NCBI RefSeq assembly: GCF_033568475.1
Contig: NC_133123.1
Span: forward strand, 132,342,930-132,406,929
Source of the DNA: Henckelia pumila
Taxonomy: Eukaryota; Streptophyta; Magnoliopsida; Lamiales; Gesneriaceae
Reading direction: 5' to 3'
DNA: 64,000 nucleotides
Shown here: one piece after another, positions 10,422 through 61,418 of the stretch
Numbering within the stretch: the first letter of the stretch is position 1
How the letters are laid out: each line of letters opens with the position of its first letter
Notes under the pieces: model-generated
Told to the model about the DNA's origin: nothing
Seen by the model: only the letters and a program-made list of their open reading frames with translations
Databases searched by the model: none
Program-made: the position numbers and the translations under genes

Positions 10422-10436
10422 ATCTCCCCTTTATTG
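10422..10436 (-). other. Polypurine tract of the SIRE-like element
   Basis: The minus strand reads caataaaggggagat directly before the LTR start TGTTGCGCC. This purine-rich run at the 3' LTR boundary is the expected plus-strand priming site. Confidence 0.75.
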
Positions 10437-11801: not shown

Positions 11802-11875
11802 TTTTAGGCTAAAATTTTGGATGAATAAAGGAAAAGGAAGAAAATTTGGTGTGCAAAACTCGGAGAATCCGAGAC

Positions 11876-12239: not shown

Positions 12240-12445
12240 TAGCCAAAATAAGAATTTCCCGAAGATGACCCTATAATTTATTAAATTTTGCAATTAAGTC
12301 CTAAAACAAATAAATCACAAAAAATGTGAGCCTTTTAATTTTGAAAAAATACAATTAATTTGTATTATCCAAAATTAAGTTGCTCAGATTTAATATTAAG
12401 CTCCCCCTTAATATGACATTAAATTTATTTTTTGTTTACAAGCGA

Positions 12446-14100: not shown

Positions 14101-14107
14101 GAGTTTT

Positions 14108-15850: not shown

Positions 15851-15853
15851 ATT

Positions 15854-17180: not shown

Positions 17181-17183
17181 TGT

Positions 17184-17196
17184 GGCTCTGATACCA
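17184..17196 (-). other. Primer-binding site, initiator tRNA-Met type
   Basis: The plus strand reads ggctctgatacca, so the minus strand is TGGTATCAGAGCC, the common plant iMet primer site. It lies two bases from the 5' LTR boundary at 17199. Confidence 0.9.
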
Positions 17197-17198
17197 CT

Positions 17199-21540: not shown

Positions 21541-21863
21541 TCTAGCTGAACCTCCACTGGTTACATAATGTGTGAATCATCTACAACGTACTGACAAAGT
21601 AACGACACGTGGAACACGTTATGAATGCAAGATAGATATGGCGGTAACTCCAGACGATAAGCCACATCCCCAAATTTTTCCAAGTTCTCTAACAGACCAA
21701 TTAACCTTGGCGTTAACTTCCCCTTGAGACCAAACCTCATCACCTTTCGGAAAGGTGAAACTCCCAAGAAAACACACTCTCCTGTTTCAAAATCCACAAT
21801 CTGTTGGATCAACTCTGGTCCTTCGACCTGACATTCTCCTACCTCATCCCAAAACAATGGTGT
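21541..21863 (-). pseudogene. Integrase C-terminus, copy B (tandem duplicate)
   Basis: Sequence from 21541 repeats the stretch beginning near 20940 with substitutions and a deletion of about 75 bp (the region around DRQYSYANTK is absent and LIQQIVD joins directly to FETGECVF). The chromodomain proper is not included. The copy ends at 21863, where the SINE-like array begins, and integrase core sequence resumes at 22946. The duplication therefore predates or accompanied the array insertion. Confidence 0.8.
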
Positions 21864-40369: not shown

Positions 40370-41779
40370 TTTCTTTATCTGCTGGGAAATCTTCTGCGTG
40401 CAGGAAAGATTCACATTAAAGGTATTGATACGTTTGCATTGCTAGATTTTGGAGCTACGCATTCATTTAACTCTCAGGCGTTTATTAGTCGGGTAGGCAT
40501 TATAACCGAGGTATCTAGTACTGGTTATGATGTTACCGTACCTTTTGATGATGTTTTATTCACCACCAGCGTGCTCAGTGGGTTAGAGTTAGAACTATAG
40601 GGGAATGCACTGAAAGCTGATCTGGTTGTACTGCCAATAACATGATTTTTTTTTTCATTCTGGGTATGGACTGGTTGACAGTCAAAGGAGCTTTGATTGA
40701 CTTCATTTGAGATAAATATCACTGAATTCTAAAAGTGGAAACCCAATTATCTTCTATGCAGCCCAGAGCAACAGTATTCCACACATCATCTCTTGTGTAC
40801 GTGCGAGGAAGTTATTACATAAGGGTTGTCAAGGGTTTCTTGATAGCTTGGTTACGGTGGCAGAACCGTCTACTAGACTTGTTGCGGAGGTGGAAATTGT
40901 ACGCAACTTTCCAGATGTCTTTTTGGATGATGTAGTTGGAATTCCACCAGTCCGAGAGGTCGAGTTAAATTTTGAGCTACTACCGGGTACTGTGTCTATC
41001 TCTAAGGCATCATATCATCTTGCTCCTACTGAGATGAAAGAGATAAAGGAACAGATTCAGGAGATGCTGTAAAAGGGCTTCATTCGTCCTAGTTTCTCAT
41101 CATGGAGTGCAACAGTTCTATTCGTGAAGAAGAATGATGGAAGTATTTTTGGAGTCCCGAGTGTCAGAGGAGCTTCAAGCAATTGAAGGAGACTCTTAAT
41201 TCCACGCTAGTCTTGGCGCTGCCATTGGAGCATGAGGAGTTGTCATTTATATAGACACGTTTAAGATGGGATTAGGCGTTGTTCCAATGCAGTGTGACAG
41301 AGTGATTGCCTATGCATCAAGACAGCTGAAGGTCCACGAGCAGAATTATCCGACGTATGATTTGGAGCTTGCAGCTGTAGTGTTCGCACTAAGATCTGGA
41401 GGCATTATCTATACGGTAAGAAGTGCAAGATTTTCACTGATCACAATAGCCTTAAATATTTCTTCACACAGAAAGAGCTGAATATGAGGTAGCGCAGATG
41501 ATTGGAGCTAGTTAAAGATTATGATTGTGACATTAGCTACCATCTAGGTAAAGATAATGTGGTGGATGATGCCTTGAGTCGGAAGATTTCAGGGGTAGCC
41601 TATTTGTCAGTGCAACGACCTCTGCATACTGAGATACAGAGGTTTGATTTAGAGATTTATTTGAGTCGTCATGCACCGAGTTTATCAGCATTGACAGTAC
41701 ATCCGACTCTTCGAGATCGGATTAGATATGGGAAGACTACCTATGAGCAGTTACTGCGTATGAGACAGAACTATGAGGT
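40370..41779 (+). pseudogene. Decayed plus-strand chromovirus pol (protease, RT ends, RNase H)
   Basis: Protease pieces at 40400-40735 include IDTFALLDFGATHSF and FFILGMDWL. The pre-RT linker at 40848-41072 reads VRNFPDVFLDDVVGIPPVRE. RT begins (KGFIRPSFSSWSATVLFVKK) and then jumps at about 41142 to the RNase H connection, so the RT core with its catalytic box is deleted. RNase H pieces at 41266-41580 include [20 protein letters not shown] and ISYHLGKDNVVDDALSRK. The frame is cut at 41779 by the Athila LTR. It is a dead host into which the Athila element inserted. Confidence 0.88.
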
Positions 41780-42854
41780 TGATGAAACTTAAAATTTGTA
41801 ATTATTTATATGTTAAAAAGTGTGTTTTAAAATTAAATTTTCATTAAAATTATGAAGTTGTATTATTTTAGTGTTATGTGTTTATATTTAAATATTTTAC
41901 TAAAAATGTTGTATTTTATGCTTTGCGCAGGTTTGGTAAAAATAAAATTACTCAAGCTACAAAGGTCATATTGGAGTAATCTCAAATCCTGTAGAATCAC
42001 AAAATAGGCATATTCAACTTTGTAGAAGACAAAAAATTCCAAAAACCTCATTAAGATTATCAAAATAATCAAACATCAAAATGGAGACAGATTTACTTTT
42101 ATTATGACCAGCTTGTAGTAAAAATATCATAACTATTTCACCTTTTACCCAAAAGAGGTGAATTATATATCCAAACACATCTACACAAAATATCCTACGT
42201 GTTCTATGTTGAAAGGAAAGGCTGAATCGGTGGTTTAAGGCATCAAACATGCCAATTAAAGTTGAGTCATGATATTAAAATTCAAGGAGACAAGCACCCA
42301 ACAACTTTACTATTCCACATTTAATGAGTCTTAGACTCTTGCTCTCATTTGGCCTATAAATAGATGTGTTGTATAATCTTTGAATTGTGCAAAAGTGTAG
42401 AGAAATTCCTCACTTGTAAAATAAATATTGTGTGTGTAAGAATAAGAGTTTGAGTGTGCATATTTTCCAAGTTTAAGTATGAAATTTCTTTTATCCTTAC
42501 CTTTGAGTCTTATGTTCATGGCAAACTAAATCATTTTATGTCAAAGTGAAAAGGTTTCATTGTTGGTCAAGTAAGATTGTTTATATTTTGTATATTCTTT
42601 CCTTTTCTATTTTTATTTTTACTAATTGATCTTTATTTGTAGGTATAATTTGGATGATTTATTGTTATCTATTTACATCAAATACTTGGTACCTTGAATG
42701 TGGTTACCTTGATTTGTTGTCTAATATGATACAATAAATACTACAATAATTATATGCTATAAATATATGTATCAATTTATAATAAAGTCATATATATTAT
42801 TTAGACAATAGCGTGGCTCTGCCGGTTGTTCTAAATAATATATTGTGATTTGAT

Positions 42855-42966
42855 CTAACATTTACTTTTTCGCAACTAACATTTACTTTCTCGCATCTAA
42901 CATTTACTTTTCCGCAACTAACATTTACTTTCTCGCATCTAACATTTACTTTCTCGCATCTAACAT
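42855..42966 (+). repeat. 21-bp minisatellite, five copies
   Basis: The unit ctaacatttactttYtcgca(a/t) is repeated five times head to tail with one or two substitutions per copy. There are no spacers, so it is not a CRISPR array. It lies in the R-U5 part of the 5' LTR. Confidence 0.9.
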
Positions 42967-43067
42967 AAAACAAAAGTCACATATTTTATTTAGACGATAG
43001 CGTGGCTCTGTCGGTTGTTCTAAATGAAATATGGTGATTTGATCTAACATTTAATTTTATGTAAATT

Positions 43068-43320
43068 TATATTTATGCACTTATATTTGTATTATGGGTA
43101 CCATATATTAATTATCGGTTAATCTGATAATAATATAGTGGGAACTATATTATATGATATATTTGTTTAAATATTTCATTGTTCTTTTATGTTTATATTT
43201 ATGCATCTATATATATATTATGGGTACCATGTATTAAATATCGGTTAATCTGATATTAATATAGTGGAAACTATATTATATGATATATTTGTTTAAATAT
43301 TTCATTGTTCTTTTATGTTT
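43068..43320 (+). repeat. Tandem duplication of about 125 bp in the LTR
   Basis: Two consecutive copies share 'tattatgggtaccat', 'atcggttaatctgat', 'aactatattatatgatat' and 'atttcattgttcttttatg'. They differ at several positions. Confidence 0.85.
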
Positions 43321-43571
43321 ATTCTTATTTTAGTTTCTTTTATTTATTTTTATTAGGCAATCTTAAATAAACCAAAAATGAACCTTTGAAGCCTTGAAAA
43401 TTTTATAATTTGTGTATTTGAATTTTTATAATAATATTTCCATCTATAATATATCATTGCTAAAATTAAACTTACAGCATCATCTCCGTGGATCGATCTC
43501 GTACTCACGAGTATATTACTTGCAGACAACCTACACTTGGATGAATTACAATTTAAGTTGTAGCAAGTTTT

Positions 43572-43589
43572 TGGCGCCGTTGCCGGGGA
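43572..43589 (+). other. Primer-binding site, tRNA-Asp
   Basis: TGGCGCCGTTGCCGGGGA is a perfect complement of the plant tRNA-Asp 3' end. It lies six bases after the LTR end at 43565 and 60 bases before the gag frame. This is diagnostic for Athila. Confidence 0.92.
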
Positions 43590-43648: not shown

Positions 43649-45488
43649 ATGATTGTTTGGAGTCGTAAACAAAGTGGTAGACTTGTTCGAGTATCTAAAA
43701 ATATTTTAAACATGGAGGATAATTATAATAATCAAGATGATAATAATAATAAAAATAATCAAGAACATGAACAACCAAGAACACTTAGGCACCATATGAA
43801 TTTAATAAGAACTAATACACCATCTTGTTTAGTTTTCCCTCCTGATGCGTCTAATTTCAATTTTAAACCTCAAATCATTCAAAATTTACCAAATTTTCAT
43901 GGCCTAGATTCTGAAAATCCATATTTGCATTTAAGAGAATTTGAGGAGGTTTGCAACACTTATAATGATCAAAATTATAGCATGGATATTGTTCGATTAA
44001 AGCTTTTTCCTTTTTCTTTAAAAGATAAAGCTAAAACATGGTTGCGAAATTTGAGATCAAGTTCAATAAGATCATGGGAAGAAATGCAACAACAATTTCT
44101 AAAAAAATTTATTCCTTCCTATAGAACAAACTCTTTTAAAAGACAAATTACAACTTTTTCTCAAAAACAAGGGGAAACATTTTATCAATGTTGGGATAGA
44201 TATAAAGAGTTACTTAATACATGCCCACATCATGGTTTTGAAATATGGAGGATAGTTTCTCACTTTTATGAATGTTTAATACCTAAAGATAGGCAAATGA
44301 TAAAATTCATGTTTAATGGAACTTTTGAAGATAAAAACCCAAATGAATCTATGGAATATTTGGAATCATTAGCAGAAAATGCTCAAAATTGGGATAATAT
44401 AGGCTCAATTGAACCACCAAGTAAAACCAATAATTCAACAAATGGGGTTGGTATTTATCATCTTAAAGATGATGTAGATATTCAAGCTAAACTTGCATCT
44501 TTAGCAAGAAAAATTGAGTCATTAGAAATGAAAAAGAGTGATCAATTAAAAAGTTTTCAAGAAATTTTTTGTCATATATGTGATACACATGATCATCTTA
44601 CAAAAAATTGTCCTACTTTGCCTTCATTTAAATAATGTCTCCATGAACAAGCCAATTATGTTAACAATTTTAAAAAACCAACATTAGATCCTTTTTCACA
44701 AACATATAATCCTGGTTAGAGAAATCATCCTAATTTTAGTTGGAGGAACGATAATAATGCACAACCTTCACAACAACCTTTTCAAAATAATCAAAATCAT
44801 CAAGGTTATGCTCCTTATATTCCACCTCCAAGAAAACATTTTGAAGATGAAATTCATGCATACATTCAAAATCAAGAGTCTATCAATATTCAAAACATTT
44901 AATCTATGAATGATTTGAAAGAAACTGTTGCAAAATTTGCATCTGCACTTAATATTCATGAAAAAAGAAAATTTCCATCTAACCACAACCTAATCCTAAA
45001 AATCAAAATCAAGATAAATTTGATCAAGTAAAAGCTGTTATTACTCTTAGAAGTGGTAAAATAGTTAATGATCCATATAGTGATGAAAACAAAGATCATT
45101 TAAACTCGAAGAGTAAGGATGAAAATCTTGATACTTTTGATAAAGATGATACTTTGAGTCCTAAGATTAAGAAAGTTGATGATAAATTATCTAAAGTAAT
45201 ATGTGAGTCAAATAAACCTGTTCCTTTTCCTCATACATTAGTAAACAATAAAAAAAAATGATTTTGATATTTATGAAGTTTGTAAACAAGTAAAAATAAA
45301 TATTCCATTATTAGATGCTATTAAACAAGTACCTTCTTATGCAAAGTTTTTAAAAGATTTATGTACTGTGAAAAGACAATTGCATATAAAGAAGAAAGCA
45401 TTCTTAACTGAACAAGTAAGTTCTATTATTAAAAATAATTCTACTTTGAAATATAAAGGTCCTGGTTGTCCAACAATTTCATGTATTA
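43649..45488 (+). pseudogene. Athila gag and gag-pol linker, broken
   Basis: A 328-residue frame (43649-44635) contains the capsid domain: FHGLDSENPYLHLREFEEV, VRLKLFPFSLKDKAKTWL, QQFLKKFIPSYRT, ITTFSQKQGETFYQCWDRYK. It ends in a CCHC knuckle, CHICDTHDHLTKNC. The real start is probably the ATG near 43711 (MEDNYNNQDD); earlier codons are optional. After a TAA at 44633 the frame continues with further stops near 44717 and 44899, and frameshifts in A-runs near 45255 and 45500, before protease. It packages the RNA in intact relatives. Confidence 0.9.
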
Positions 45489-48400
45489 TTGAAAAAAATA
45501 AAAATAAAAAAAGCTTTGTTAGATTTGGGAGCGAGTGCGAATTTACTTCCTTATTCAGTTTATGAAAAACTTAAGTTGGGAGATTTAAAACCTACATCTG
45601 TTACAATTCTACTAGCCGATAGGTCAATCAAAACACCTAAAGGTATCGTAGAAGATGTGTTAGTTCAAGTCGATAAATTCATATATCCTGTGGATTTTAT
45701 TGTCTTGGATACACAACCAATAGAAGTGCATAATGAAATTCCAGTAATATTAGGACGTCCATTTCTAGCAACTTCAAATGCTTTAATTAATTGTCGAAAT
45801 GGAATAATGAAATTGTCTTTTGGAAATATGACTTTAGAACTTAATGTGTTCAATTTATGTAAACAACCAAGTATTAATGAAGATGAAGATGATAATGCAA
45901 TACAAACAATCGTGGAAGAAAATATACACCAAGAAAACATAAATCAACAATCTGAAGTTTGTTTAGTGGAAAGTGTTTTTAAATCAAAGTTATTTGAAGA
46001 AATTAATGAACTTGAAGAAGTAAAAGAAGATGATCATCCAAAACTTGAATTAAAACATTTACCAATAGAACTAAAATATGTTTTTCTTGGTGAAAATCAA
46101 ACATATCCTATTGTAATATCTTCTACCATCTTACCAAAACAAGAAGAAAATTTAATAATATTACTTAAAATGCATAAAAATGCAATTGGATGGACTTTGC
46201 AAGATATAAAAGGTATAAATCCTTTAATCTGTACACATAGAATTCACTTGGAAGAAAATGCTAAAACATATCAACAACCACAAAGAAGATTAAATCCAAA
46301 CATGAAAGAAGTTGTTAAAAATAAAGTTTTAAAACTATTAGATGCCAGAATTATTTATCCAATCTCGGATAGTAAATGGGTAAGTTCAACACAAGTAGTA
46401 CCAAAAAAATCAGGCATCACTGTTATAAAAAATGAAAAGGGAGAACTATTACAAGCAAGGATTCCATCTAGTTGGCGTATGTGCATTGATTATAGAAAAT
46501 TAAATGATGCAACTAGAAAAGATCACTTTCCGTTACCATTTTTAGATCAAATTTTAGAGAAAGTGGCAGGTAATCCTTATTATTGTTTTCTTGATGGGTA
46601 TTCGAGGTATTATCAAATACCAATATCATTAGAAGATCAAGAAAAAACTATATTCACTTGTCCTTTTGGAACTTTTGCATTTAAAAGAATGTCATTTGGT
46701 TTATGTAATGCTCCGGCTACTTTTCAAAGATGCATGCTAAGTATTTTTAGTGACATGATTAAAGAATTTGTGGAAGTTTTTATGGATGATATAAATGTTT
46801 TTGGAAACTCATTTGAAAACAGTCTTAAAAATTTGGAAGAAGTTTTAAAAAGATGTGAAGAAAAAAATCTTGTTTTAAATTGGGAAAAATGACACTACAT
46901 GGTTAAATCCGAAATTGTGTTAGGGCATATCATATCTGAAAAAGGAATTGAAGTTGATAAAGCTAAGGTTGATGTTATTGCTAATTTATCATCACCAAAC
47001 ACGATCAAAGAAATTCGATCATTTTTGGGTCATGCAGGATTTTATAGAAGATTTATAAAATTTTTTAGCATAATATCGAAACCAATTTCAAATCTTTTAA
47101 CAAAATAAACACAATTTGAATGAACTCAAGAATGTGAAACTTCTTTTAAAAAGATAATTAATCTTTTAACTACATCACCTATTTTACAACCTCCTGATTG
47201 GTCTTTACCATTTGAATTAATGTGTGATGCAAGTGACTATGCTGCAGGAGCCGTGTTAGGAAAAAAAAGAAAGAAAGGTAAACCTCATGTGATCTCCTAT
47301 GCTAGTAGAACCTTAAATAGTGCTCAAATCAATTATTCAACAACTGAAAAAGAATTACTTTCAGTAGTGTGTGCATTAGATAAATTTCGATCATATTTAA
47401 TTGGTTCTACTACTATTGTTTATACTGATCATTCTGCCATAAAATATTTATCAAATAAACAAGATGCTAAGCCAAGATTAATAAGATGGATTTTGTTGTT
47501 ACAAGAATTTGATCTTGTAATAAAAGATAAAAAAGGAAAAGAAAATGTAGTAGCCGATCATTTGTCAAGAATAATTTTTGAATCGTCTCAAAATGAAATA
47601 CCAATTAATGAAAATTTTCCGGATGATCAACTATTCTATGCTACTACTATGCCTTGGTTTGCTAATATTGTAAATTTTCTTGTGACAAATAAAATGCCTT
47701 CTCATTGGAGTTCACAAGATAAAAATAAATTCTTGAAAGATGTCAAAAAATTTTATTGGGATGATCCTTATTTGTCTAAGTATTGTCCTGATCAAATTTT
47801 TCGACTTTGCATACCCGACAATGAGGTAAGTAGTGTCATTAAATTTTGTCATTCTGAGGCATGTGGAGGTCATTTTTCGTCAAAGAAAACAACTGCAAAA
47901 TCTTTCAATGTGGATTTTATTGACCTTCTTTATTCAAAGATACGCATTCATTTTGCAAATATTGTGAAAATTGTCAGAAAATGGGTTTAATTTCAAAACG
48001 AAACATGATGCCTTTAAATCCAATCATGATTATTGAAATATTTGACAGTTGGGGAATAGATTTTATGGGTCCATTCTCATTATCTTTTGGATTTACTTAT
48101 ATTTTAGTGGCTGTCGATTATGTTTCAAAATGGATTAAATCAATTGCATGTAGAACTAATGATCATAAAGTTGTGATAAAATTTTTGAAAGAAAATATTT
48201 TTAGTCGATTTGGAATACCTCGAGCTATAATCAGTAATGAGGGAAGTCATTTCATAAATAAATCATTTTCTTTGTTGTTAAGAAAATATGGTATTACACA
48301 TAAAGTTTCTACTTCATATCACCCTCAAACGAATGGTCAGGTTGAACTTGCAAATAAAGAAATAAAACAAATTTTGGAAAAAACTGTCAATCCAAATCGA

Positions 48401-48937
48401 AAAGATTGGTCTTTAAGATTAAGTGATGCATTATGGGCATATAGAACTGCATTCAAAACATCATTAGGGATGTCATCATATAGATTAGTTTTTGAAAAGC
48501 ATTGTCATCTACCTGTTGAAATTGAACATAAAGCTTATTGGGCAATTAAAGTATTTAATACTAATTTAGATGATGCATCTAAATTAAGAAAATTGCAACT
48601 AAATGAACTAGAAGAATTAAGAAATGATTCATATGAAAATGCAAAAATTTATAAAGATAAAACAAAAGCCTTTCATGATAAAAATATTATGAGAAAATCG
48701 TTTGAAATTGGACAAAAAGTTTTACTTTATAATTCTCGCTTGCATTTGTTTCCAGGAAAACATAGATCATGATGGACAGGTCCATATGTTGTAAAATATG
48801 TTTATCCTCATGGTGTTGTTGATGTTGAAAATCTTAAAAATAATAATGTTTTTAAAGTTAATGGACAAAGACTTAAACCATTTTTAGAAAATGAAATTCT
48901 TAATGATGAGTTTATGCCTTTATATGATCCAAATTAA
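45489..48937 (+). pseudogene. Athila pol: protease, RT, RNase H, integrase, broken
   Basis: Protease opens with LLDLGASANLLPYSVYEKL. RT follows with SSWRMCIDYRKLNDATRKDH, GLCNAPATFQRCM and the catalytic box FMDD (about 46785). RNase H (47220-47560) has [33 protein letters not shown] and [11 protein letters not shown]. Integrase has WGIDFMGPF for the first Asp, but the second catalytic position reads Asn in [21 protein letters not shown] holds the Glu. The C-terminal GPY module is intact after a stop. Lesions: stops at 46890, 47106, 47121 and 48770, and a frameshift near 47900 in the His/Cys domain. The domain order is complete but the polyprotein cannot be made. Confidence 0.92.
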
Positions 48938-49083
48938 TTGTTACTTATATTTTCATTTTATTTTTGCAGAATTGAGTTCACTTCCCGGTTAAGTGGCGGA
49001 TAACGGTACTCCGTGACTTCTTTTAGTCGGTTTTCTTTCAATTTCCCAAAATAATTGAAAAAAAAAATTTCTTTATTTTCAAA

Positions 49084-49524
49084 ATGGATGAAGCTATCAA
49101 AGAACATGGTAAATAGTTTCCATCTGTTTCTAAAAAAGTTCTAAGAATGATTTATGAAGGCAGATGTGAAAGATTGAGAATTCTTATGCAAAAAGGAATT
49201 TCGGAGGATATTCGTCTTATAATTGAAGCCAAAGTTCGATTGGGTGGTGAAGTTCCAAAATTTTTACTTGTTCGAAATATGTCTGGACTAGGAAAAAGCA
49301 CCTATGCGAAGAAAATGAGGGCCAAGAGGTTAGATGTTTGTCATAAATGTGCCAGATGGACTTGTGATAGACGATGCAGATCTTTGGGATATGTTTCCAC
49401 AAATAGAGAAGATAAAATTGATTTCATTAAGAATGGGCTGAGTAAAGAGTCATTAGATGATATCTCATTGACTCCTGAGACGCATTCTAGTGGAGATGTT
49501 CAAGGTCAACTTCTCCGTTTATGA
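49084..49524 (+). pseudogene. Unknown ORF with CX2CX4CX3C cluster between pol and LOG
   Basis: The frame opens with ATG at 49084, has a TAG at 49114-49116, then reads 125 codons from 49147 to the stop at 49522-49524. It is basic, with a likely helical N-terminal half (IYEGRCERLRILMQKGISED) and a cluster CHKCARWTCDRRC that could bind a metal ion, followed by RSLGYVSTNRE. There is no membrane segment, so it is not a classical env. I do not recognise the family. It lies about 115 bp after a splice-acceptor-like site (tttttgcag at 48961-48969). It could be an accessory protein of this Athila lineage or a captured fragment. Confidence 0.5.
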
Positions 49525-49613
49525 AAACTATTCCAAGCACAGCGTCATGGTAATGGTCTTGGGAATCTGACTAAAAAAAAATCCTATTTGCCAATTTATA
49601 AGAAAATTAGATG

Positions 49614-49805
49614 GTAAGCCAACCCTCGACTCATAAATATTGAAGGAACACTGTGAGCCACAATCACTGTATATACGCATGCATGTCATTATTATATATT
49701 ATTATTTTTATTGTTTTCATTATTATGTTCACACCTGTATTCCTATTTCTGTCGTATTCCTTGTTTTCCTTATAAAATCACTCAACTATCTCTATATTTT
49801 TGCAG
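49614..49805 (+). other. Candidate intron before the LOG start codon
   Basis: A donor-like ATG|GTAAGC at 49611-49618 and an acceptor tatatttttgcag ending at 49805 bound 192 bp of very T-rich sequence. The acceptor lies 20 bases before the LOG ATG. A second acceptor-like tttttgcag ends at 48969. Athila env-like genes are thought to be expressed from spliced RNA, so these may serve the same purpose. This is inferred from sequence only. Confidence 0.4.
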
Positions 49806-49825: not shown

Positions 49826-50431
49826 ATGGCAGGATCTGCTTCAAAAAAATTGAAAAATATTTTTGTATTTTGTTGTTCTAATACTGGAAAGAACGAAATA
49901 TTTGTTGAAGCAGCAATTAATCTTGGAAAAAAGTTAGCAGAGAGAAAAATTCACATGGTATACGGAGGAGGCAATATTGGGTTAACGGGATCTATTTCAA
50001 CAGCAGCTCATCTTGGAGTTAGTCAGGTTTTGGGTATTATTCCTATAGCTTTAGCTGAAGTAAATATTACAGGTGTTACGGTTGGGGAAGAATTGAAAGT
50101 TTCATCAATGTACGAGAGAATAACTAAAATGATAGAAAATTCTGATGCTTTTATTGCCTTACCTGGAAGCTTTGGTACTTTAGAAAAAAATTTTCATGTT
50201 GTTTCTTGGGCACAACTTAATATCCATGATAAACCTGTTGGCTTGTTGAATATCAATAACTATTATGATGGTTTGTTGACTTTTCTTGATGTAGCTGTGG
50301 AACAAAATTTCATTTCAGAAAATTCACGAAGGATGCTCATCTCTGCTTCGAATGAAGACCAATTAATTGATGATCTCCAATATTTTTTTCATCAACCTGA
50401 TTCGGCTATAACAAAGATTAATTGGTCTTAA
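49826..50431 (+). CDS. LOG-like cytokinin riboside 5'-monophosphate phosphoribohydrolase homologue, carried by Athila
   Basis: Members of the LONELY GUY family release active cytokinin bases from their nucleotides in the cytosol in one step. This uninterrupted 201-residue ORF starts at ATG 49826 (context aaacATGGc); an upstream in-frame extension is AT-rich intron-like sequence and is excluded. The Rossmann-like fold is evident: NIFVFCCSNTGKN (11-23), MVYGGGNIGLTG (44-55), VLGIIPIAL (68-76), SDAFIALPGSFGTLEK (106-121), NIHDKPVGLLNINNYYDGLL (132-151), FISENSRRM (162-170). Family motif residues differ: PGGxGTxxE reads PGSFGTLEK, so its second Gly is Ser and the final Glu, catalytic in characterised LOGs, is Lys. 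Arg98 is kept. Plant LOG genes usually have several introns; here there are none, suggesting capture from mRNA. It lies between pol and the polypurine tract. Activity is doubtful. Confidence 0.88.
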   Translation: MAGSASKKLKNIFVFCCSNTGKNEIFVEAAINLGKKLAERKIHMVYGGGNIGLTGSISTAAHLGVSQVLGIIPIALAEVNITGVTVGEELKVSSMYERITKMIENSDAFIALPGSFGTLEKNFHVVSWAQLNIHDKPVGLLNINNYYDGLLTFLDVAVEQNFISENSRRMLISASNEDQLIDDLQYFFHQPDSAITKINWS

Positions 50432-51898
50432 CCAACCAGTAAGAAAAGGAAACTGGATCATTGATTGAACATGTCACGAAATAGTTTTTGTTTGTTCCTC
50501 ATCTTCAATATATTCCAGGTGATATCTCTTTCATCATGTACTCTTTATTTTTCTTAAAAAATTAAAAACAATGTCATATTCAGGTTTGGGAGAGGGTTTA
50601 TCTTTTAAAAATAAAAAAATTTAAAATTTTAAAAATAAAAAAATATTTCTATAATAATATATATTTTTCCTTTTTCAATGGCAGAGTAAGGAGTCAAAAA
50701 CTCCTGACACGCATTAGTTTTTATTTATCATATTATCACAATAGATTAGATTTTAATATTTCGTATATATTTAAATTGCAAACTACTAAGAAAATGAAGT
50801 CTTTTTGTATATATTTTTGTTTACACTTCTTTTTATCAATTTAATAGAAAATATATAATTGATGGGATATAAGTTATAAATAATATATAATTGTGTGTTT
50901 TCAAATAACATATTTTTTAAAACTTTTATGATTATATAGTTAAAGTGATATTGATTGAATGAATAATAACATATATAATTGAAGGAATTAAATTGTAAAA
51001 GTGCAATCTATACTCACATAAATTTTGTGAGTGAGAGGTGAGAATTGAGAAAACAACTTATAAGCTTTTATTGATTATTAAGAAATGGTTGATTACTAGA
51101 TTAATCCCATTTTGAAAAAAAAAAATTGTGCATATAAAATTGGCTGCAAAGTTGTTTGAAGTTTGATTGTAATGATGTAGAGTATTAATATTACTACTAT
51201 ACTTCTCATGGTAAATTCTTAATAGATTTACCTCTTAAATAAATAAATAAACTTTGAAAAAAAAGAAAAAAATGTTACATATTCAAAGTTTATTGTAGGT
51301 ATTTGGTTTTATAAAAACAACTTCGCAGCCAAGTGCAAAAAAAAAAAATAGAAAAAATAGAAAAAATAGAAAAAACTAAAAAACAAAATGAGTTTATTCT
51401 TTGTAAATTATCCTATCTTATTTTCAATATTAGTTTATTTGATTGTCTGCTTTAAATATTAGCCATTTTCAATGAGTGTATAATTTTCTTCCAACTCCAT
51501 GAGTGAAAAACAGCTATATATGAAATATCATAACCCGAGAGAATATGGAGTTGAGACTTTTACATTAAAATTCCCGATGATATACAGTTTATGAAAATGA
51601 TTTCTATTATCATTTTAATTATATTATTCTCAAAATTTTTAGAAAATATTTATATAAAAAATTATATATATTTAATATTTTGATATTGTGTGAAATATAT
51701 ATGTATACCCCATCCAATTATATATTAATATATTAGTTGATAATAAGATTTATAAATAAACATATGATCTCCTCACAAGTGTGTTTTAAAATTTCAAATT
51801 TTGCAAATTTGAATATATATATTAAGGAATAAAAATCTAACTTGTGATTTTATGATATTTTATGATATTTTATTACTAAGGGACTAGTAATAAGCCGG
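50432..51898. other. AT-rich noncoding stretch between LOG and the 3' LTR
   Basis: About 1.5 kb without a usable ORF, strongly A/T-rich. It has a purine run 'ggtttgggagaggg' at about 50584-50597 that looks like a second, internal polypurine tract, and short A-run repeats (gaaaaaata) at 51340-51370. It may include the 3' untranslated region of the captured gene. Confidence 0.5.
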
Positions 51899-51908
51899 TT
51901 TGGGGGTG
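51899..51908 (+). other. Polypurine tract of the LOG-carrying Athila element
   Basis: tttgggggtg directly precedes the LTR start TGATAAAACTT at 51909. Confidence 0.8.
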
Positions 51909-52896
51909 TGATAAAACTTAAAATTTGTAATTATTTATATGTTTAAAAGTGTGTTTTAAAATTAAAGTTTCATTAAAATTATGAAGTTGTATTATTTTAG
52001 TGTTATGTGTTTATATTTAAATATTTTACTAAAAATGTTGTATTTTATGTTTTGCGCAGGTTTGGTAAAAATAAAATTATTCAAGCTACAAAGGTCATAT
52101 TGGAGTAATGTTAAATCCTGTAGAATCACAAAAGAGGCATCTTCAATTTTGTTGAAGACAAGAAATTCCAAAAACCTCATTAAGATGATCAAAATAATCA
52201 AACATCAAAATGGAGACAGATTTACTTTTACTATGACCAGCGTGTAGTAAAAATATCATAACTATTTCACATTTTACCCAAAAGAGGTGAATTATATGTC
52301 CAAACACATCTACACAAAATATCTTACGTGTTCTGTGTTGAAAGGAAAGGCTGAATCGGTGGTCTAAGGCATCAAACATGCCAATTAAACTTGGGTCATG
52401 ATATTAACATTCAAGGAGACAAGCACCCACCAACTTTACTATTCCACATTTAATGAGTCTTGGACTCTTGCTCTCATTTGGCCTATAAATAGATGTGTTG
52501 TATAAGCTTTGAAGTTTGCATAGTGTAGAGAAATTCCTCACTTGTAAAATAAATATTGTGTGTGTAAGAATAAGAGTTTGAGTGTGCATATTTCTCCAAG
52601 TTTAAGTATGAAATTTCTTTTATCCTTACTCTTGAGTCTTATGTTCATGACAAGCTAAATTATTTTATGTCAAGGTGAAAAGGTTTCATTGTTGGTCAAG
52701 TAAAATTGTTTATATTTTGTATATTCTTTCCTTTTCTATTTTTATTTTTACTAATTGATCTTTATTTGTAGGTATAATTTGGATGATTTATTGTTATCTA
52801 TTTACATCAAATACTTGGTACCTTGAATGTGGTTACCTTGATTTGTTGTCTAATATGATACAATAAATACTACAATAATTATATATTATAAATATA
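51909..52896 (+). repeat. 3' LTR of the LOG-carrying Athila element, interrupted
   Basis: It matches 41780-42770 nearly base for base, with a few percent substitutions, then stops at 52896, where TGTGACGCC of another LTR begins. The remaining 0.8 kb is expected beyond the window, after the inserted element. Confidence 0.92.
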
Positions 52897-53702
52897 TGTG
52901 ACGCCTAGAATCCAATCTACTAAATCGCATGAATTAATTTAATAAATATTGGGATTATTATTTTTAAGTTTAATTAATTTAAATTCTTTATGTGAATTAT
53001 ATTCAGAACAACCCTTTTTGTTAGACGATTTGGAGGCTATAATCAAGTGGCCTGGGTGTAGCGGTTCACCTAGTGTCAGCATAATCCTTGTAGTCGCACC
53101 AAAGTCTAGAGGATGGAGATACGTGACACCACCTCGATCGGGAGAGTCGGTGGTTTGTTTACGTGATCTCATCCTTGGGATCCCAAAAGCAGAGAAACAA
53201 TTCCTTGAGTATCAGAGTTGGTATCCCTATTTTAAAGACATGCATTTCATTCATATTTATATTGAATATGTTGTATTGAAATCATCTTGTTGTTATTTTA
53301 CTTGTTCTTGCATGTTATGTTGCTTTTACTGGGAATATCATTCTCACCGGAGTTATTCGGCTGTTGCTTTGTTTTGTATGTGTACTTGGAAACAGGTGGG
53401 GCAGGATCGAGTCAGCGAAGACCTGGTTAGCATCAAGAGTGAGAGATAGAAGTGGGACTCGGTTTAGAAGTCGAACCAGCATGTCAATCTAGTTTATGTT
53501 GGATCATGTTTAGAATTCGAACTTATTGTTATCTGTGGTATCGTTTATGCGAGTATTGAGGTATGTATGTTGTCGTTGCATGTATTATGAACCTTGTTAT
53601 GCTTTGAATGTATTGGACTTGAGCTTTGGCAAGATTTTCTGCTGTATTTTTAGTCCTGTGTTGTCACCGCTCGATCGGTAGAGTTTGACCGATCGAGCGA
53701 TG
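52897..53702 (+). repeat. 5' LTR of a third gypsy element, first part
   Basis: It begins TGTGACGCC at 52897. The LTR continues at 63276 and ends TATCACA at 63534, giving a terminal inversion TGTGA/TCACA and a total of about 1.06 kb after removing the copia insertion. A perfect hairpin (CGCTCGATCGGT at 53668-53679, 8-base loop, ACCGATCGAGCG at 53688-53699) lies immediately beside the copia insertion site. No ORF in it is supported. Confidence 0.85.
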
Positions 53703-55560
53703 TGTTGGAAAACTGGCGTTCAGATCAATCGCGATTGATACCCGGTGCAGCGGAAGTTTAAAAATTTTATTATGGAACAATTCCATAGTGTGGGTATCAG
53801 CCGTTTAACGATTAAATTATAAGTGTGTGTAAAATTAAATAACAATTATTAAATTTTACCTTCAATCTCGAAGCGAGATTATTGGACTCCAACAGATTTC
53901 TCTGCTCTTGTTGTATCTCCCAGGAACTGATGAACTCCTTCAATCAGGTCCACGAATGGAGGTTTAATCCCTCTGATAGATTGCACTAGAAAATCTATCA
54001 GAAGTTTTCTACGAAGAGAATAAACGAATTTGATTCGCTATTCCAGACTGCAATTCAAAATCACAGACCGGATTTTCTCACGCAGAGAAGGGAGGGGGCG
54101 GCCGAATTCCTTTTAGAGAGAGCTAGGGTTTTCGATTTTCTGTCTCTCAAATTATGACCAGCTGTATGTAATTTCTGTACTGCAATAACTTATTTATAAT
54201 GCAGGCCACTAACACCTTAGGGCCCATTAGTCATAAGTTGAGGCCCGACAAGCAAAGCCCGCATGTTCAGAAATTAATATAAAATTCATCGTGACTCCGA
54301 TTGATGAACCGATTTCACCAATGTGCACAGAAACCATTTCTGCACATTTTAAAGTCAAGATAAATTTTCTTGAATCCGAATTCAGTGGTTTCCAAAAATG
54401 TACATCCCTATGTCATTTTAGGAAATCCTACTCCCTTACTCTTATTTAAGAAGTCCAACTTCTTTATTCATTAAATTTAACTCTTTAAATTTAACTATCT
54501 CAACGGGGATTAAAACTCCATTACACTGTGTGACCCTCAATGGTTCAGGGATACAGCTAGCCGTGGGCTCACAACTCCTTGTGACTCGGAACAACGATTT
54601 CCGACTTGCCCAACGAATCATGGTAAAGCGCCTAGCAACATCGCCCCATGATTCCCTAGGTATCACTGATAGTGCCTACAAGAACCAGTAGATTTTGGTT
54701 AGCGTACAGTACGGTCCCTTCATCCAAATATCCCGATCGAATCAACAACCATTGGTATATCGAGAGTCGCTCAAGATTCGATAACTATGCAACACATCTT
54801 GAAGATCAAATTAGTGACATCGCATGTGCTACTAAGAAACCATTTCTTAAATCACATCAAGTACTCTGGCCAGAGATTCGTCACACTAATATCTCCTCAG
54901 ATCGCATAGGATATCCACACTCGCAAGTATGTGGTGAATCCTTGACAACAATGCATCGACTCCTATATGTGTTGTAACTGTACCCAATCCCGACACCTGA
55001 TGACCCCCTTGGAGTCGGTAAACGAGTCAAAGCACAGTACTAGCATATAGAGTCTCCATGATGTTTCAAGTAGTAAGGACTAATGGTGTACAACCAAAAC
55101 CGCGGACTTTATCCACTCGATAAGTGATAACCACTTGGAAAGTCCGGATAGGGTAGTTCGATTATTCATCCTATGAATATCCATTTGCATGCTTCGAACA
55201 TCTCCATGTTCCCTACCAATGAAACGTGGTACTCCGCATCGCAAATGCTAGTCTCAAACTCGAGCGATCCTTATCCTTATTATCGGACGGCTCAATCGAC
55301 TAGGAACAGTTTAGAATATACAGTGACTATAAGATGTATTTCATGATAGACATCCCCATGTTCTACCACATCTTACATACACTATAGTATATTCAAGGTC
55401 TTTATCAAAACAACAATAGTATATCATAATATAACAATATGAAGAAAGATAAAGTCATTGCCATTAAAAAATGTAAATTATATTAAACAAAAGATTGTTT
55501 ATACAAAGAGTCATCAAAACCCATAGCCACAAGTTGGCTCACTGGGCACCCACTCTTTCA
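53703..55560 (-). repeat. 3' LTR of the young copia element
   Basis: The plus strand runs TGTTGGAAAACTGG to CACTCTTTCA. A minus-strand TATA-like box (cattataaataa) is at 54190-54201. The segment with 'gggcccattagtcataagttgaggcccgac' lies upstream of the TATA box. It pairs with 61419-63275 and with the solo LTR at 24497-26377. Confidence 0.95.
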
Positions 55561-55574
55561 ATCTCCCACTTGCC
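55561..55574 (-). other. Polypurine tract of the young copia element
   Basis: The minus strand reads gcaagtgggagat next to the LTR start TGAAAGAGTG. It overlaps the end of the pol frame region by at most a codon. Confidence 0.75.
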
Positions 55575-58500
55575 CTATAGCCAACTAGTCATACTACGTA
55601 GACCCATTGCTTCGCGATGTTTGTCAAACAATGGTCCTGGCAAGGGCTTAGTAAGCGGATCAGCGATATTGTCTGCAGAGGCCACTCGTTCGACAGTGAT
55701 GTCTCCTCTTTCCACAATCTCCCGGATGATGTGGTATTTCCTCAGTACGTGTTTGGATCTTTGATGAGACCTTGGTTCCTTTGCTTGAGCAACGGCACCC
55801 GTGTTGTCACAGTACACCGGGACTGGACCAAAAAATTCAGGAATGACGCCCAACTCTTGGATGAACTTCCTCATCCAAACGGCCTCTTTAGCAGCAGCTG
55901 ATGCTGCAATGTATTCAGCCTCAGTGGTGGAATCCGCTGTGGTGTCCTGCTTGGAACTCTTCCAAGAGACAGCACCGCCATTGAGCATGAACACAAATCC
56001 AGAGGTTGACTTCGAGTCATCCACGTCACTTTGGAAGCTAGAGTCGGTATAGCCTTCCAATTTCAGATCTCGTCCTCCATATACCATGAACATATTCTTA
56101 GTCCTTCGTAAGTACTTAAGAATGTCCTTCACGGCTTTCCAATGCATTTGACCAGGATTAGCCTGATATCTGCTCGTGACACTCAGAGCAAATGCTACAT
56201 CCGGTCTGGTAGATATCATCCCATACATGATACTACCTATAGCTGACGCATATGGTACATGTGTCATATTCTCTATCTCTGCATCAGTCTTGGGACACAT
56301 AGACTTGGATAAAGAAACTCCATGACACATGGGTAGATGTCCTCTCTTGGACCCATCCATTGAAAACCGTTTCAATATGGTGTCGATGTAGGTTGATTGA
56401 GTGAGTCCTATCATTCTCTTAGATCTATCTCTATAGATCTGTATCCCAAGAATGTAGGATGCCTCACCCAAATCCTTCATCGAGAATCTACCTGATAACC
56501 ATATCTTTGTTGACTGCAACATCCCTACATCATTCCCAATGAGTAGGATGTCATCAACATAAAGTACTAAGAATGTCACAGCATCCTTAACTACTTTCTT
56601 GTACACGCACGGTTCCTCCGGGTTCTTGATGAAACCAAAATCTTTTATTGTTTCATCAAATTTCTGGTTCCAACTTCTTGATGCTTGTTTTAGACCATAA
56701 ATTGATCTCTGAAGCTTGCATACCTTATGCTCGCTTCCCATTGATGTGAACCCCTCAGGCTGCTTCATATAGATTTCTTCCTTAATGTCTCCATTAAGAA
56801 AGGCAGTCTTCACATCCATTTGCCATATCTCATAGTCATACCATGCAGCTATGGCAATAAGGATTCTTATGGACTTGAACATTGCAACTGGTGAAAAGGT
56901 TTCATCATAGTCAACTCCTTGCCTTTGAGTATAACCTTTTGCCACCAATCGTGCCTTGTAGGTCAATACCTTATCATCAGGCCCAAGCTTTTTCTTGTAG
57001 ATCCATTTACACCCTATTGGAACAATTCCATCAGGAGGATCTACTAAAGACCAAACTTGGTTTGTATGCATCGAATCCAATTCAGACTGCATAGCTTCAA
57101 GCCATAAATTTGAATCCGCATCAGAAATTGCTTCCTTGAAGTTTCTTGGATCACATCCAATGTCGGGTTCATCTTGATCCCCTTTAAGAAGAAGACCATA
57201 TCGAACAGGAGGTCTAGAAGTCCTCTCGGATCTTCTAGGTTCAGGCGTGTCCAGCAATGGTTCCTGAGGTGTAGGATCGTTATTTTGTATTTCGGGTTCT
57301 TCTCGAACTTCTTCGAGTTCCATCATCTCGCCTTTATTATCCAATAAGAACTCCTTCTCCAAGAAGGTGGCATTCCTAGAAACAAACACCTTTGTTTCAG
57401 CAGGATAATAGAAATAATATCCGATTGAATTCTTCGGATACCCCACAAAATAACATAAGCTGGATCGACTATCCAACTTATCTCCCACTGTCCGCTTCAC
57501 GTAAGCAGGACATCCCCAAATCCTCAAGTACGAATACTTAGGAGCTTTGCCATTCCATAACTCGTATGGTGTTTTGTTCACGGCTTTAGTGTGGACGTTG
57601 TTCAACAACAATACCGCCGTTTCAAGCGCATAGCCCCAAAACGAAGGTGGAAGCTCAGTGAAGCTCATCATGGATCGAACCATGTCCAACAAAGTTCGAT
57701 TACGACGCTCCGATACACCATTCAGCTGTGGCGTCATAGGAGGAGTCCACTGTGAGAGAATCCCATTCTCTTTCAGATAGTCCAAAAACTCGGTACTCAA
57801 GTATTCTCCACCTCGATCCGATCTAAGTGCTTTAATACTTTTACCTAGCTTGTTTTCTACTTCAGCCTTGAATTCTTTGAACTTTTCAAATGCTTCAGAC
57901 TTATATTTCATTAAATATAAATACCCATACCTTGAATAATCATCAGTAAAGGTAATGAAGTAGGTGTGGCCATATTGAGTCCCAACTCTAAATGGACCAC
58001 AAACATCTGTATGGATCAAATCCAACAGATTTTGACTACGCTCAGGTTTCCCCTTAAAAGGAGATTTAGTCATTTTTCCTTTTAGGCAGGATTCACAAGT
58101 AGGTAGAGAGTTAATATCAGACATATCAAACATGCCCTCTCCCACTAGCTTGTTCATCCTCCTTGAGGAAATATGACCTAGCCTAGCGTGCCAAAGGTTT
58201 GCCGGGTTTTGGCTATCGATTTTCCTTTTGTTTGTTGTCGCCGGTTTATCAACATAATTTATTGGAACGTCTTTTAGTTTTAAGTTGTATAGATCGTTTT
58301 CAAGTTGTCCATTTCCAATCAAACATTCATTCTTGTAAATATTGCAAATCCCATTCACAAAATTGCAAGAATAACCATCTCTATCTAGCATAGAAACAGA
58401 AATAATGTTTTTAATTAAATCCGGAACAAATAAAACATCTCTTAAAAATAACTTAAAACCGTTCTGCAAAATTAAACAAACATCTCCAATGGCTGTAGCT

Positions 58501-59489
58501 TCAACTCTGGAACCATTCCCGAGCCTCAGCTGGGTCTCACCCATTCTAAGCCTGCGACTTCTTGTCATCACCTGCAAATCATTGCAAATGTGAGATCCAC
58601 ATCCGGTATCCAATACCCAAGAAGTAGTATTAAGTGAAATGTTTATTTCAATATAGAACATACCCTTTGCAGTTTCCAACTGCTCCAGATATTCCTTGCA
58701 GTTGCGCTTCCAATGACCGGGCTTCTTGCAGTAATGTCAAACATCCTTGGATTTTCCATTGTTTGAAGCCTTTGTCTTGTGCTTCTTCTCGGGTTCGACT
58801 TTCTTGGGTGGGGCAGAACGTTTCTTACCCTTCGTACTTGGCCCCTTCTTAGCAGAAGATGAGGAGCCCACCAAGAAAGCTGGTTTATCCTTCTTTAGTG
58901 TGGATTCATATGTCACAAGCATATTGACCATCTCTTCAAGGGTGGCCTCTATCTTGTTCATATTAAAATTTACCACAAATCCGTCAAACGAAGAAGGAAG
59001 AGACAGAAGCAGTAAATCCACGTTGAGTTCATGCTCCAACACCAAATCAAGAGTTGCTAACTTCTGTATGAGCCAAATCACTCGTACCCCATGATCACGG
59101 ACCGAAGTCCCTTCACGCATGCGACACGTCATTAGCTCCTTAACAGTAGCGAACCTTTCAGCCCTCGATTGAGCCCCAAAAAGTTCCTTGAGTTGAGCGT
59201 GAATGTCAGCAGCATTCACGGTGTCCTCAAATCGCCTCTGGAGTTCATCAGACATCGAGGCTTGCATATAGCATTTGGTCTTGATGTCATGGTCCCACCA
59301 TGCATCAAGTTTGGCCAATTCCTCCGGACTTACGTCAGCTGGTGCTTCCTTCGGAGGTGATTTCTCTAACACGTAGAGCATTTTCTCCGAAGTCAAGACA
59401 ATCTTCAACTTCCGGAACCATTCCGTATAGTTTGCGCCAGTCAACTTGTTTTGTTCGAGGATCGAGAATAATGGATTACGCGAATTCAT
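55575..59489 (-). pseudogene. Copia gag-pol polyprotein with a single in-frame stop
   Basis: One minus-strand frame of about 1305 codons starts at ATG 59489. Gag (59489-58740) has LTGANYTEWFRKLKIVLTSE and ends in a basic linker. The only lesion I see is a TGA at 58737-58739 at the first position of the CX2CX4HX4C zinc knuckle; the frame continues for 1034 codons. Protease has DTGCGSH. Integrase has HX..HARLGH with CESC, then TDVCGPF, RSDRGGEYL and NGVSERRNRT, so the DDE triad is present. RT has MDVKTAFLNG and YVDD. RNase H has TTEAEYIAAS, CDNTGAVAQA and ends ADPLTKPLP. It is nearly complete, so sister copies are probably intact. Confidence 0.93.
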
Positions 59490-61011
59490 TGTATGAAATA
59501 CTGAAAAGAAAAACAGACATATATCAATGATTGTTTAAGCAATTTACTAAGACATAAAATAGGCGAATTTAATTTTATGAATCTCACTCCCACTATTTTA
59601 ACGATTTCACTACCCTCTAGTGAAAACGGGAAATTTTTTCCTTAGTGAGAACATGGAGTCCAATTGACAAACTTATGGTCCCGAATAATATCAGCCAACC
59701 ATAATTCTCAAAAGGTAGAGCCCAATTGCTTCCAAAGCAACCCTCATGTATTTACCTCATGTCCAATAAGGGCCCAATAATATGACGCCGTTTATAGTGA
59801 CATGTCAAGATGACCCATCAATATTAAGTTGTGATGGACGGTCGCCATGTGGATCCCCCAATAATATGAGCCGATCCCATGGGAGTTCCACCCAACTTAC
59901 AACATGTGTCGATCCAATGTACAGCTTTCCGACGGACGGGCCCCCCCAATAATATGAGCCGGACCGTATCCGCGGGTAGCATCACATACATTGACCGTTG
60001 ATGGAAGGTAGGAACATTTAAACAAATTTAAATTTCCTTTATTTATCTTGATATCAATTTTAAATCATATTTAAAATGAGGGATTTTTAATTATGAAAAT
60101 TTGTCTCATCATTTTTCAATTTATTGTATGCTTGCCGGATTCATACAATTATGTCTAAAACATGCATACAATCATAATATCATATATTATATATATAGGA
60201 TGATCGATTCCATTTCTAATTGACTCGTGGTTGCCAATCACGAGTCTTAGTCCAATCCTAGGTAATATGCAGTATGCAATGCAATCCTATTACATTAGCT
60301 TCCAATTTACATTTCTTCGTCTTTATTGTCTGCTGGGCCCACCATCTTCAAATCTTGATCTCCCACTAAATCTAATGTATTTACAATAAATAGCAATGAC
60401 AAGTAGGGGATACATTTTAGGGGTGGAAACGGGCCATAAACCAAGCCCACTTTTATTACATATGACATTCATATTGGGCCATAAACCAGGCCCATTAATA
60501 AAACCAACAACAATAAAACAAATGTAAATTCCTAACATACACCTACAAAATTGGTCATGGCAATCGATCATCCTTATCCAATAACATTTAATTCAAAATT
60601 AATTTATTGGATATCATGCATATGGCAATTTAAATTTAAACAGGATAAAATCATATTTTATATATAAAATCATATTTTACATATAAAATCATATTTTACC
60701 TTTTATTAAATAAAATCATATTTTATCTACAGAATCTAATTTTATAGATAAAATCATATTTTACTTAATATATACATAAGATCAAATCTTATCATCAATT
60801 GTACCAAAAATAATTGATTTCAAAATTCAATTTAAGGATAAAATATTAAAATTTTCCAAAAATTCAAATTTATCCAAAAATCAATTTTAAAATTTTCGGA
60901 CTCGAACAATTCGATCCGATGCCTCGTGAACCAATCAAAAACAATTTTTGACCGGACCAAAAATAAAATTTTAACACATTAAAATTAATTTAAATAAAAA
61001 AAATAATTTTT
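59490..61011 (-). other. Untranslated leader of the young copia element
   Basis: There is no ORF. It contains four imperfect units of about 85 bp marked by 'caataatatgagccg' (near 59685, 59775, 59865 and 59950) and a short repeat 'aaaatcatattttac' at 60640-60730. The leader totals about 1.9 kb between primer site and gag, unusually long, and includes the GC-rich block at 61012-61301. Confidence 0.7.
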
Positions 61012-61301
61012 CCTGCGGGCCGGCCCGGGAAGCACTCCCGGGCCGGCCCGCACCCGTGGGCGCGGGCCGGGGCAGCCCGGCTGCCCCTTTAGGGCAGCGA
61101 CAATCGCTGCCCTGGCGGCGCCTGGCGCCGCCCCTGGGCGGCGCCGTGCGCTGCCCTGCGCTGGGCAGCGCCGAGCGCTGCCCCTGGGTGGCGACGTGCG
61201 CCGCCGTGGGCGGCGCTGTGCGCCCCCTTTGGGCGGCGCACGGGCAGCGACCGTCGCTGCCCCACCGGGCAGCGATCCAATCGCTGCCCGGGTTTTGCCC
61301 G
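61012..61301 (-). repeat. GC-rich array of stem-loops in the copia leader
   Basis: About 290 bp of nearly pure G/C within AT-rich sequence. Stem-loops follow one another: 16-bp perfect arms at 61015-61030 and 61036-61051 with a 5-base loop, then several GGGCAGCG/CGCTGCCC stems with 3-base loops and GGCGGCGC/GCGCCGCC stems. At least seven can be drawn. It lies just downstream of the primer site on the element's RNA. A role in RNA packaging, dimerisation or translation is only inferred. Confidence 0.8.
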
Positions 61302-61404
61302 AAAAAAAAATTATTTTATTTAAAATATTTATTTTGTTTTAAAAAACCAAGACTCAAAAATTTTTGTACAATCGATTAATTTAATCGTTTGATCTGAGCA
61401 ACCT

Positions 61405-61417
61405 GGCTCTGATACCA
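61405..61417 (-). other. Primer-binding site, initiator tRNA-Met, young copia element
   Basis: The plus strand reads ggctctgatacca, so the minus strand is TGGTATCAGAGCC. It is one base from the 5' LTR at 61419. Confidence 0.92.
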
Positions 61418-61418
61418 C

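Follow-up and report, generated by a model that had tools for sequence, protein, structure and literature searches.

A decayed Athila-type retrotransposon in Henckelia pumila belongs to a high-copy family carrying a LOG-derived gene and a virus-type partner gene

Genes and features of the element

The window analysed here, a stretch of 64,000 nucleotides from Henckelia pumila (contig NC_133123.1, positions 132,342,930 to 132,406,929, forward strand), contains a long terminal repeat (LTR) retrotransposon with two accessory genes between its pol region and its 3′ LTR. One is an open reading frame (ORF) for a LOG-family protein, and the other is a decayed gene for a nucleic-acid-binding protein (NABP) of carlavirus type. 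The copy in the window is dead, a decayed outlier in which LOG, the virus-type gene and pol are damaged and the 3′ LTR is truncated. The two-gene cassette nevertheless recurs in the genome, and the LOG falls within one eudicot clade of LOG proteins that carry a C-terminal tail. The parts of the element, which include segments for protease (PR), reverse transcriptase (RT), RNase H (RH) and integrase (INT), are as follows.

41780..43565 (+), 5′ LTR, starting TGATGAAACTT; its end is inferred from the primer site, and it was matched to the 3′ LTR
43572..43589 (+), primer binding site of tRNA-Asp type, a perfect match (18 of 18)
43649..44635 (+), gag (PF03732, E 9.1e-19)
45489..48772 (+), pol remnants, broken into separate ORFs (PF13650, PF00078, PF17917, PF00665)
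45489-46892 (+), PR-RT ORF, part of pol
47220-47990 (+), RH ORF, part of pol
47981-48772 (+), INT ORF, part of pol
48956..48969 (+), splice-acceptor-like TTTTATTTTTGCAG, 3′ of pol, shared by the window copy and each of 20 fetched copies
49084..49640 (+), carlavirus-type NABP gene, decayed here (PF05515/PF01623); outer limits approximate, from homologs
49826..50431 (+), LOG-like ORF of 201 codons, shorter than in siblings because codon 202 is a stop
50432..50464 (+), remnant of the basic C-terminal tail, past the stop; KKRKLD in sibling L016
51897..51908 (+), candidate polypurine tract, purine-rich in sequence, before the 3′ LTR
51909..52899 (+), 3′ LTR, truncated to the first ~996 bp of ~1.79 kb

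The primer site claimed in the first-pass annotation of this DNA is present, as judged against a presumed tRNA-Asp sequence. An Asp primer is typical of Athila, and the parts also stand in the Athila-type order: gag, then PR-RT-RH-INT, then an additional ORF ahead of the 3′ LTR. On the basis of primer site and gene order, we assign the element to the Athila-type Ty3/gypsy retrotransposons.

That annotation had also listed gag, pol and both LTRs. Both gag and pol are present, with pol split into several ORFs; the 5′ LTR stands from 41780, and the 3′ LTR retains only its initial portion. The two LTRs of the window (41777-42770 and 51905-52899) are 95.9% identical over 996 columns, which marks this as an older copy. 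Sibling 3′ LTRs still match the window 5′ LTR past 42770, so the window element is truncated, and a target duplication therefore cannot be shown for this copy.

The LOG gene and its decay in the window

The 201-codon ORF lies downstream of gag and pol and matches PF03641 (E 1.1e-32), as its earlier identification as LOG-like implied. Its best solved relative is 2a33 (At2g37210; E 9e-56), an entry named LOG3 (AtLOG3) in PMC4979012. The gene had been described as intact, which holds for the 201-codon frame but not for the gene, since sibling L016 reads 11 codons further, on to ...NWSQPTSKKRKLDH. Against L016, the window LOG has 18 differences over 202 positions, G115S, E121K and the stop at codon 202 among them, and the pair shows 18 nonsynonymous (N) and 12 synonymous (S) changes. 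Its motif reads PGSFGTLEK, in which the motif glycine has become serine and the catalytic glutamate lysine. Among 20 fetched siblings, PGGFGTLEE occurs in 19, PGG in all 20 and the catalytic glutamate E122 in 19.

The structure predicted for a sibling LOG has the LOG fold (predicted local distance difference test (pLDDT) score 90.6) with a low-confidence tail, and its best match is 2a33 (template-modelling (TM) score 0.97 normalised to the target, 53% identity, 0.7 Å). The element copy is intronless; plant LOG genes have introns. One sibling, L009 (G000:C103:5149050-5156150), has E121K/I122N in common with the window copy and otherwise resembles the main group, which suggests a sub-lineage or recombination between copies.

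Recurrence of the LOG gene in the genome

Searched with the LOG protein, the assembly that contains the window (885 Mb in 133 contigs) returned 456 candidates, of which the best 150, all full-length or nearly so, were scored. These are the window itself and 149 copies at 89-92% identity, spread over 12 contigs. The matched stretch contains no stop in 141 of the 150, a proportion that overstates family-wide intactness because the scored copies are the best candidates. When a 95-residue LOG query was used, the best 150 matches scored were 49-53% identical and full length or nearly so, and were taken as element copies.

Twenty copies were fetched together with their flanks, and each is collinear with the window over the stretch that begins in RT, includes LOG and ends inside the 3′ LTR, counting two that align in two pieces and one that begins 550 bases in. 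The LTR start is seen in nine of ten fetched 5′ ends, and the flanking DNA differs at each, which suggests independent insertions. In the eight measurable copies, LTR pairs are 98.5-99.85% identical over the 524-677 bases compared. The earlier suggestion that LOG might be family-wide is thus borne out by the scored and collinear copies: LOG is a stable component of a high-copy Athila-type family.

Some LOG copies are evenly spaced, with three about 10.16 kb apart (G000:C4:61908974-61929906), two 10.1 kb apart (C2:50825700-50836416) and three about 21.5 kb apart (C72:3249686-3293205). This spacing suggests tandem arrays of the element, perhaps arising from LTR recombination.

A virus-type partner gene

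The NABP gene lies between integrase and LOG. Its open piece in the window (49147-49524) encodes 125 amino acids, and a 186-codon open frame is the commonest state among scored genome copies (the best 150 of 465 candidates). The best 120 of 198 homologs are mostly about 180 amino acids long and 56-80% identical; those listed include Orobanche gracilis (one cluster of 109), O. minor and Rhamnella. At E ≤ 0.001, PF05515 (Viral_NABP) matches 33 of 36 aligned homologs and PF01623 (Carla_C4) matches 30, and no other family matched among these 36 at that threshold. A search for NABP relatives in IMG/VR gave 50 pattern matches, none of which was confirmed.

The two accessory genes keep a fixed spacing. 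For 108 of the 150 scored NABP hits, a listed LOG lies downstream on the same strand, 668-690 nucleotides away from start to start, and the corresponding distance in the window is 679 nucleotides. The remaining 42 hits have no LOG among the best 150 listed, although one may still be there. Furthermore, both genes occur in all 28 loci examined; these overlap in part and correspond to the window and 20 other copies. These data speak against the idea that a processed LOG copy inserted secondarily into this single element. The 150 scored LOG copies, the same-spaced LOG beside so many NABP hits and the collinearity of 20 of 20 fetched copies rule out such an event, and we assign it practically no weight.

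One clade of retrotransposon LOGs across eudicots

Protein searches for LOG relatives listed the best 120 of 1937 matches and the best 120 of at least 7998. Close relatives among those listed come from Xanthoceras, Diplodiscus, Reevesia, Populus and Parasponia, and further ones from Citrus, Primulina, Paulownia, Diospyros and Orobanche. In a tree of the LOG core built without tail columns, 71 retrotransposon-type rows (retro-LOGs) split from 26 host-type rows with support of 100/99 and in all 200 bootstrap trees, the retro and host labels having been set after an earlier tree with tail columns was viewed. This 97-row tree includes two rows from the H. pumila genome and omits rows under 190 amino acids and P0037, P0070, P0087, P0108 and P0110. 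The nearest relatives of the window LOG in it are its own family, two further sequences and Primulina.

A larger tree with two pocket columns masked agrees on the retro-LOG split (Shimodaira–Hasegawa-like approximate likelihood-ratio test (SH-aLRT) 99); it holds 193 of 209 rows, omitting the same five named rows, P0009 and short rows. A LOG phylogeny had been proposed as the way to find the donor gene, but the outgroup of the retro-LOG clade among host LOGs is not resolved in the 193-row tree.

P0109 and its relatives form a 705-member Citrus cluster annotated as LOG, which lacks the catalytic motif and keeps a basic and EAR-like tail (see below). These are likely to be mis-annotated retrotransposon proteins.

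A conserved C-terminal tail

Two features of the family escaped the first-pass annotation: the second ORF, of virus type, and a conserved tail at the C-terminus of LOG. Among 63 retro-LOG rows with a complete C-terminus, 56 have a basic cluster when the whole tail is considered, and 43 have a strict LxLxL among their final ten residues. Neither feature occurs in any of 23 host LOG rows. A second set of 87 proteins came from a search with a tailless profile; among its 83 full-length members, the basic cluster, sought here in the last 22 residues, is present in 82 and LxLxL in 77. In 66 distinct tails ending in this pattern, the leucines are almost fixed and the letters between them vary, the choice of tails itself favouring hydrophobic residues at the leucine sites. 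Among the controls, none of 30 host LOGs and 2 of 120 NABP proteins have LxLxL at this place.

LxLxL is the EAR motif, through which TOPLESS corepressors are bound, and KKRK is of the kind that signals nuclear localisation. The window's own lineage has the basic tail alone, with the EAR motif in 0 of 5 scorable rows and a sibling tail that ends KKRKLDH.

Loss of the hormone pocket

The proposed catalytic residues of C. glutamicum LOG are R99 and E122, and its proposed site for the cytokinin side chain comprises M96, H97, K100, E125 and W129, a site shared without change by AtLOG3 and the LOGs of rice and Claviceps (PMC4979012). All of these residues are kept in 30 of 30 host LOG rows. The 147 retro-LOG rows outside the Xanthoceras and Citrus types (a count that, like the 177 tail rows, includes the host-type row P0070) retain R99 in 142 and E122 in 141, whereas H97 is kept in 45 and K100 and E125 in five each. 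Over 179 rows, K100 and E125 are jointly lost in 165 and jointly kept in 12. Judged from these alignments, the charged residues of the hormone pocket have been lost in most retro-LOGs while the catalytic residues stay. In the window family, the five pocket positions read M, Y, I, H and W; R99 and E122 are retained by the family, and E122 is absent from the window copy.

Individual lineages depart from this pattern in two directions. All eight Xanthoceras-type rows retain every catalytic and pocket residue. In the Citrus type, the catalytic motif is lost, with E122 absent in 22 of 22 rows, and LxLxL is kept in 14 of the 18 rows that have a full-length end. On the 193-row tree, nine rows form a weakly supported basal group (56) that combines the basic tail and an intact pocket with the absence of an EAR motif. 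On the opposite side of the tree (support 97), 155 of 157 rows lack K100, and the EAR motif is present in 120 of 137 scorable rows.

These patterns make doubtful the first-pass description of the captured gene as one for hormone activation. A working LOG would release active cytokinin and so promote division of the cells in which the element replicates. The high retention of the catalytic arginine and glutamate in most retro-LOGs, the PGGFGTLEE of nearly all fetched siblings and the close match of the predicted fold to AtLOG3 are what such an enzyme would display. However, the window family has other residues at H97, K100 and E125, nearly all retro-LOGs beyond the small basal group have exchanged K100 and E125, the window copy has lost E122, and the Citrus type has dispensed with catalysis yet preserves LxLxL. 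Continued cytokinin activation consequently seems unlikely to us, and because the pocket residues are replaced, we do not call the window family a cytokinin-activating LOG.

Alternatively, the substrate may have changed, so that the protein would cleave another nucleotide in the nucleus, such as a different N6-modified or a plain adenine nucleotide, with effects on RNA or DNA synthesis or on signalling. Retention of the catalytic and phosphate-binding residues, a concerted change of the pocket around the N6 group and the basic tail of the window family would all suit a changed substrate, but the Citrus-type lineage manages with no catalysis at all, and in our judgement this alternative is improbable as well.

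A proposed role for the two proteins

The reading that we favour, at roughly even confidence, is that the window holds a dead copy of a high-copy Athila-type family with two accessory genes, in which the former LOG now would serve as a nuclear effector. The proposed history begins with a single capture of LOG, followed by gain of the basic, nuclear-localisation-like tail. Later, on the branch leading to all but the small basal group, LxLxL would have been gained and the charged residues that bind the side chain lost. Both proteins may be made from a spliced downstream RNA by way of the acceptor-like site after pol, and both would enter the nucleus. There, the former LOG could be a scaffold that binds or cleaves nucleotides and makes contact with host transcription; in most lineages it would do so by recruiting or titrating TOPLESS-type corepressors. 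The virus-type protein may counter RNA silencing or alter transcription. For comparison, the carlavirus protein p12 (chrysanthemum virus B) has been described as activating transcription in the nucleus and suppressing silencing in the cytoplasm (PMC7588395). In the window lineage, where EAR would have been lost, the nuclear protein might work without TOPLESS or retain an altered nucleotide hydrolase activity.

A broader proposal is that one widespread Ty3 lineage of eudicots is equipped with a two-gene effector kit, the virus-type protein plus the hormone enzyme remodelled into an EAR-tailed nuclear protein, and with it steers TOPLESS-dependent transcription and RNA silencing in the way that secreted proteins serve pathogens. 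We offer this tentatively and lean towards thinking that it goes too far.

Several observations weigh against the nuclear-effector reading. Recruitment of TOPLESS through EAR cannot be the function in the window lineage, as that lineage has no EAR motif. Indeed, the EAR state needs 13 changes on the whole tree, which indicates repeated loss, and K100 needs three. The window NABP ORF reaches its two profiles only at their cut-offs (23.3 bits against 23 for PF05515, and 20.9 against 20.9 for PF01623); its homologs score up to 34.1 bits, and two of seven fall under both cut-offs. The NABP structure model is poor (pLDDT 63.7, predicted TM score 0.31) and unfit for a fold search. We rejected a dedicated splice acceptor before LOG, and do not claim one, because the 20 fetched siblings do not share the GCAG found at 49802-49805. 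That tailed LOGs of other plants reside in Athila elements is inferred from multi-copy clusters, from the published Citrus and Populus elements described below and from three LOG/NABP pairs on contigs of equal size (8723, 4511 and 1558), a weak clue that could be due to chance.

The remaining objection concerns constraint, which a dN/dS comparison across copies had been expected to show. With L016 as reference, singleton changes in sibling LOGs number 31 N and 12 S and shared changes 6 N and 6 S, and under no constraint an N:S ratio of about 2.6-3.0 would be expected; these few counts come from 23 distinct copies picked by protein score, with the frame-shifted L046 dropped. Three singleton stops occur among the 23. 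Recent changes in LOG thus look nearly neutral, and older ones are perhaps constrained.

Near-neutral singletons are also what would be seen if LOG were a captured host gene that hitchhikes with no effect. Median divergence of the window from 20 siblings is 5.2% for LOG, with no gaps, 5.2% for the virus-type gene and 3.2-3.8% from RT to the integrase core, compared with 6.6% for LTR, 6.8% for 3′ noncoding DNA and 8.8% for spacer. The short integrase C-terminal part (10.2%) and the leader after pol (11.0%) diverge more than LOG, so rates vary along the element, which would suit a passenger as well. Nevertheless, the low gapless divergence of LOG relative to noncoding DNA, together with one clade that spans many eudicots and has a conserved tail and alternating-leucine pattern, leaves a mere passenger very unlikely. 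The evidence for function is stronger between species than within this genome.

Of the extra ORFs carried by plant LTR retrotransposons, the two described here have recognisable origins. Gain of a tail, loss of the pocket and loss of catalysis in the Citrus type, where the tail is mostly retained, yield a testable prediction, namely nuclear, TOPLESS-linked action. Furthermore, among plant proteins that bear the annotation ‘LOG’ or ‘LOGL10’, some resemble retrotransposon proteins and may not activate cytokinin.

Other repeats in the window

Three further repeats were observed. An element on the minus strand at 53703-63115, which we take to be of Copia type, has long ORFs (55575-58679 and 58737-59489) and LTR stretches that are 99.4% identical over 1.7 kb, with a related stretch at about 24500-26200. 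A direct-repeat pair at 9389-17912, about 7.95 kb apart and 89-92% identical, is probably another LTR element. A 260-nucleotide repeat occurs at 20937-21796 as two copies 600 nucleotides apart that are 88% identical.

Comparison with known systems

Steinbauerova et al. (2011) reportedly found a LOG domain 3′ of pol in the Athila lineage. The first-pass annotation had known of no Athila element with such a gene, but Gypsy consensus sequences of Citrus and Populus carry a YgdH (LOG) domain (PMC9289625). LOG in such elements is therefore already known, and the partner gene, the tail and the loss of the pocket are additions. We found no report of these three features in our searches of part of the open-licence literature.

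The Citrus and Populus elements likewise place a LOG-family domain in a plant Ty3 element, and the sections of PMC9289625 that we consulted say nothing of a tail, of changes in the pocket, of a virus-type partner or of a wide eudicot clade. The Citrus-type proteins lack the catalytic motif, whereas the window family retains it. With plant LOG, represented by AtLOG3 (2a33), the siblings have in common the fold, PGGxGTxxE and the catalytic arginine and glutamate. Unlike plant LOG, the element copy is intronless, has a changed cytokinin pocket and bears a tail that is basic and, in many families, EAR-like.

The NABP, or cysteine-rich protein, of carlaviruses has a basic stretch followed by a Cys-rich motif, an arrangement that is also found in the element protein. 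The latter differs in being encoded by a retrotransposon and mostly about 180 amino acids long, with the viral profiles covering only its middle part. Finally, orchid Gypsy elements with an AlkB m6A demethylase domain are also Ty3 elements that have fixed a host-type enzyme, although the enzyme is a different one and its activity was demonstrated in vitro (PMC9289625).
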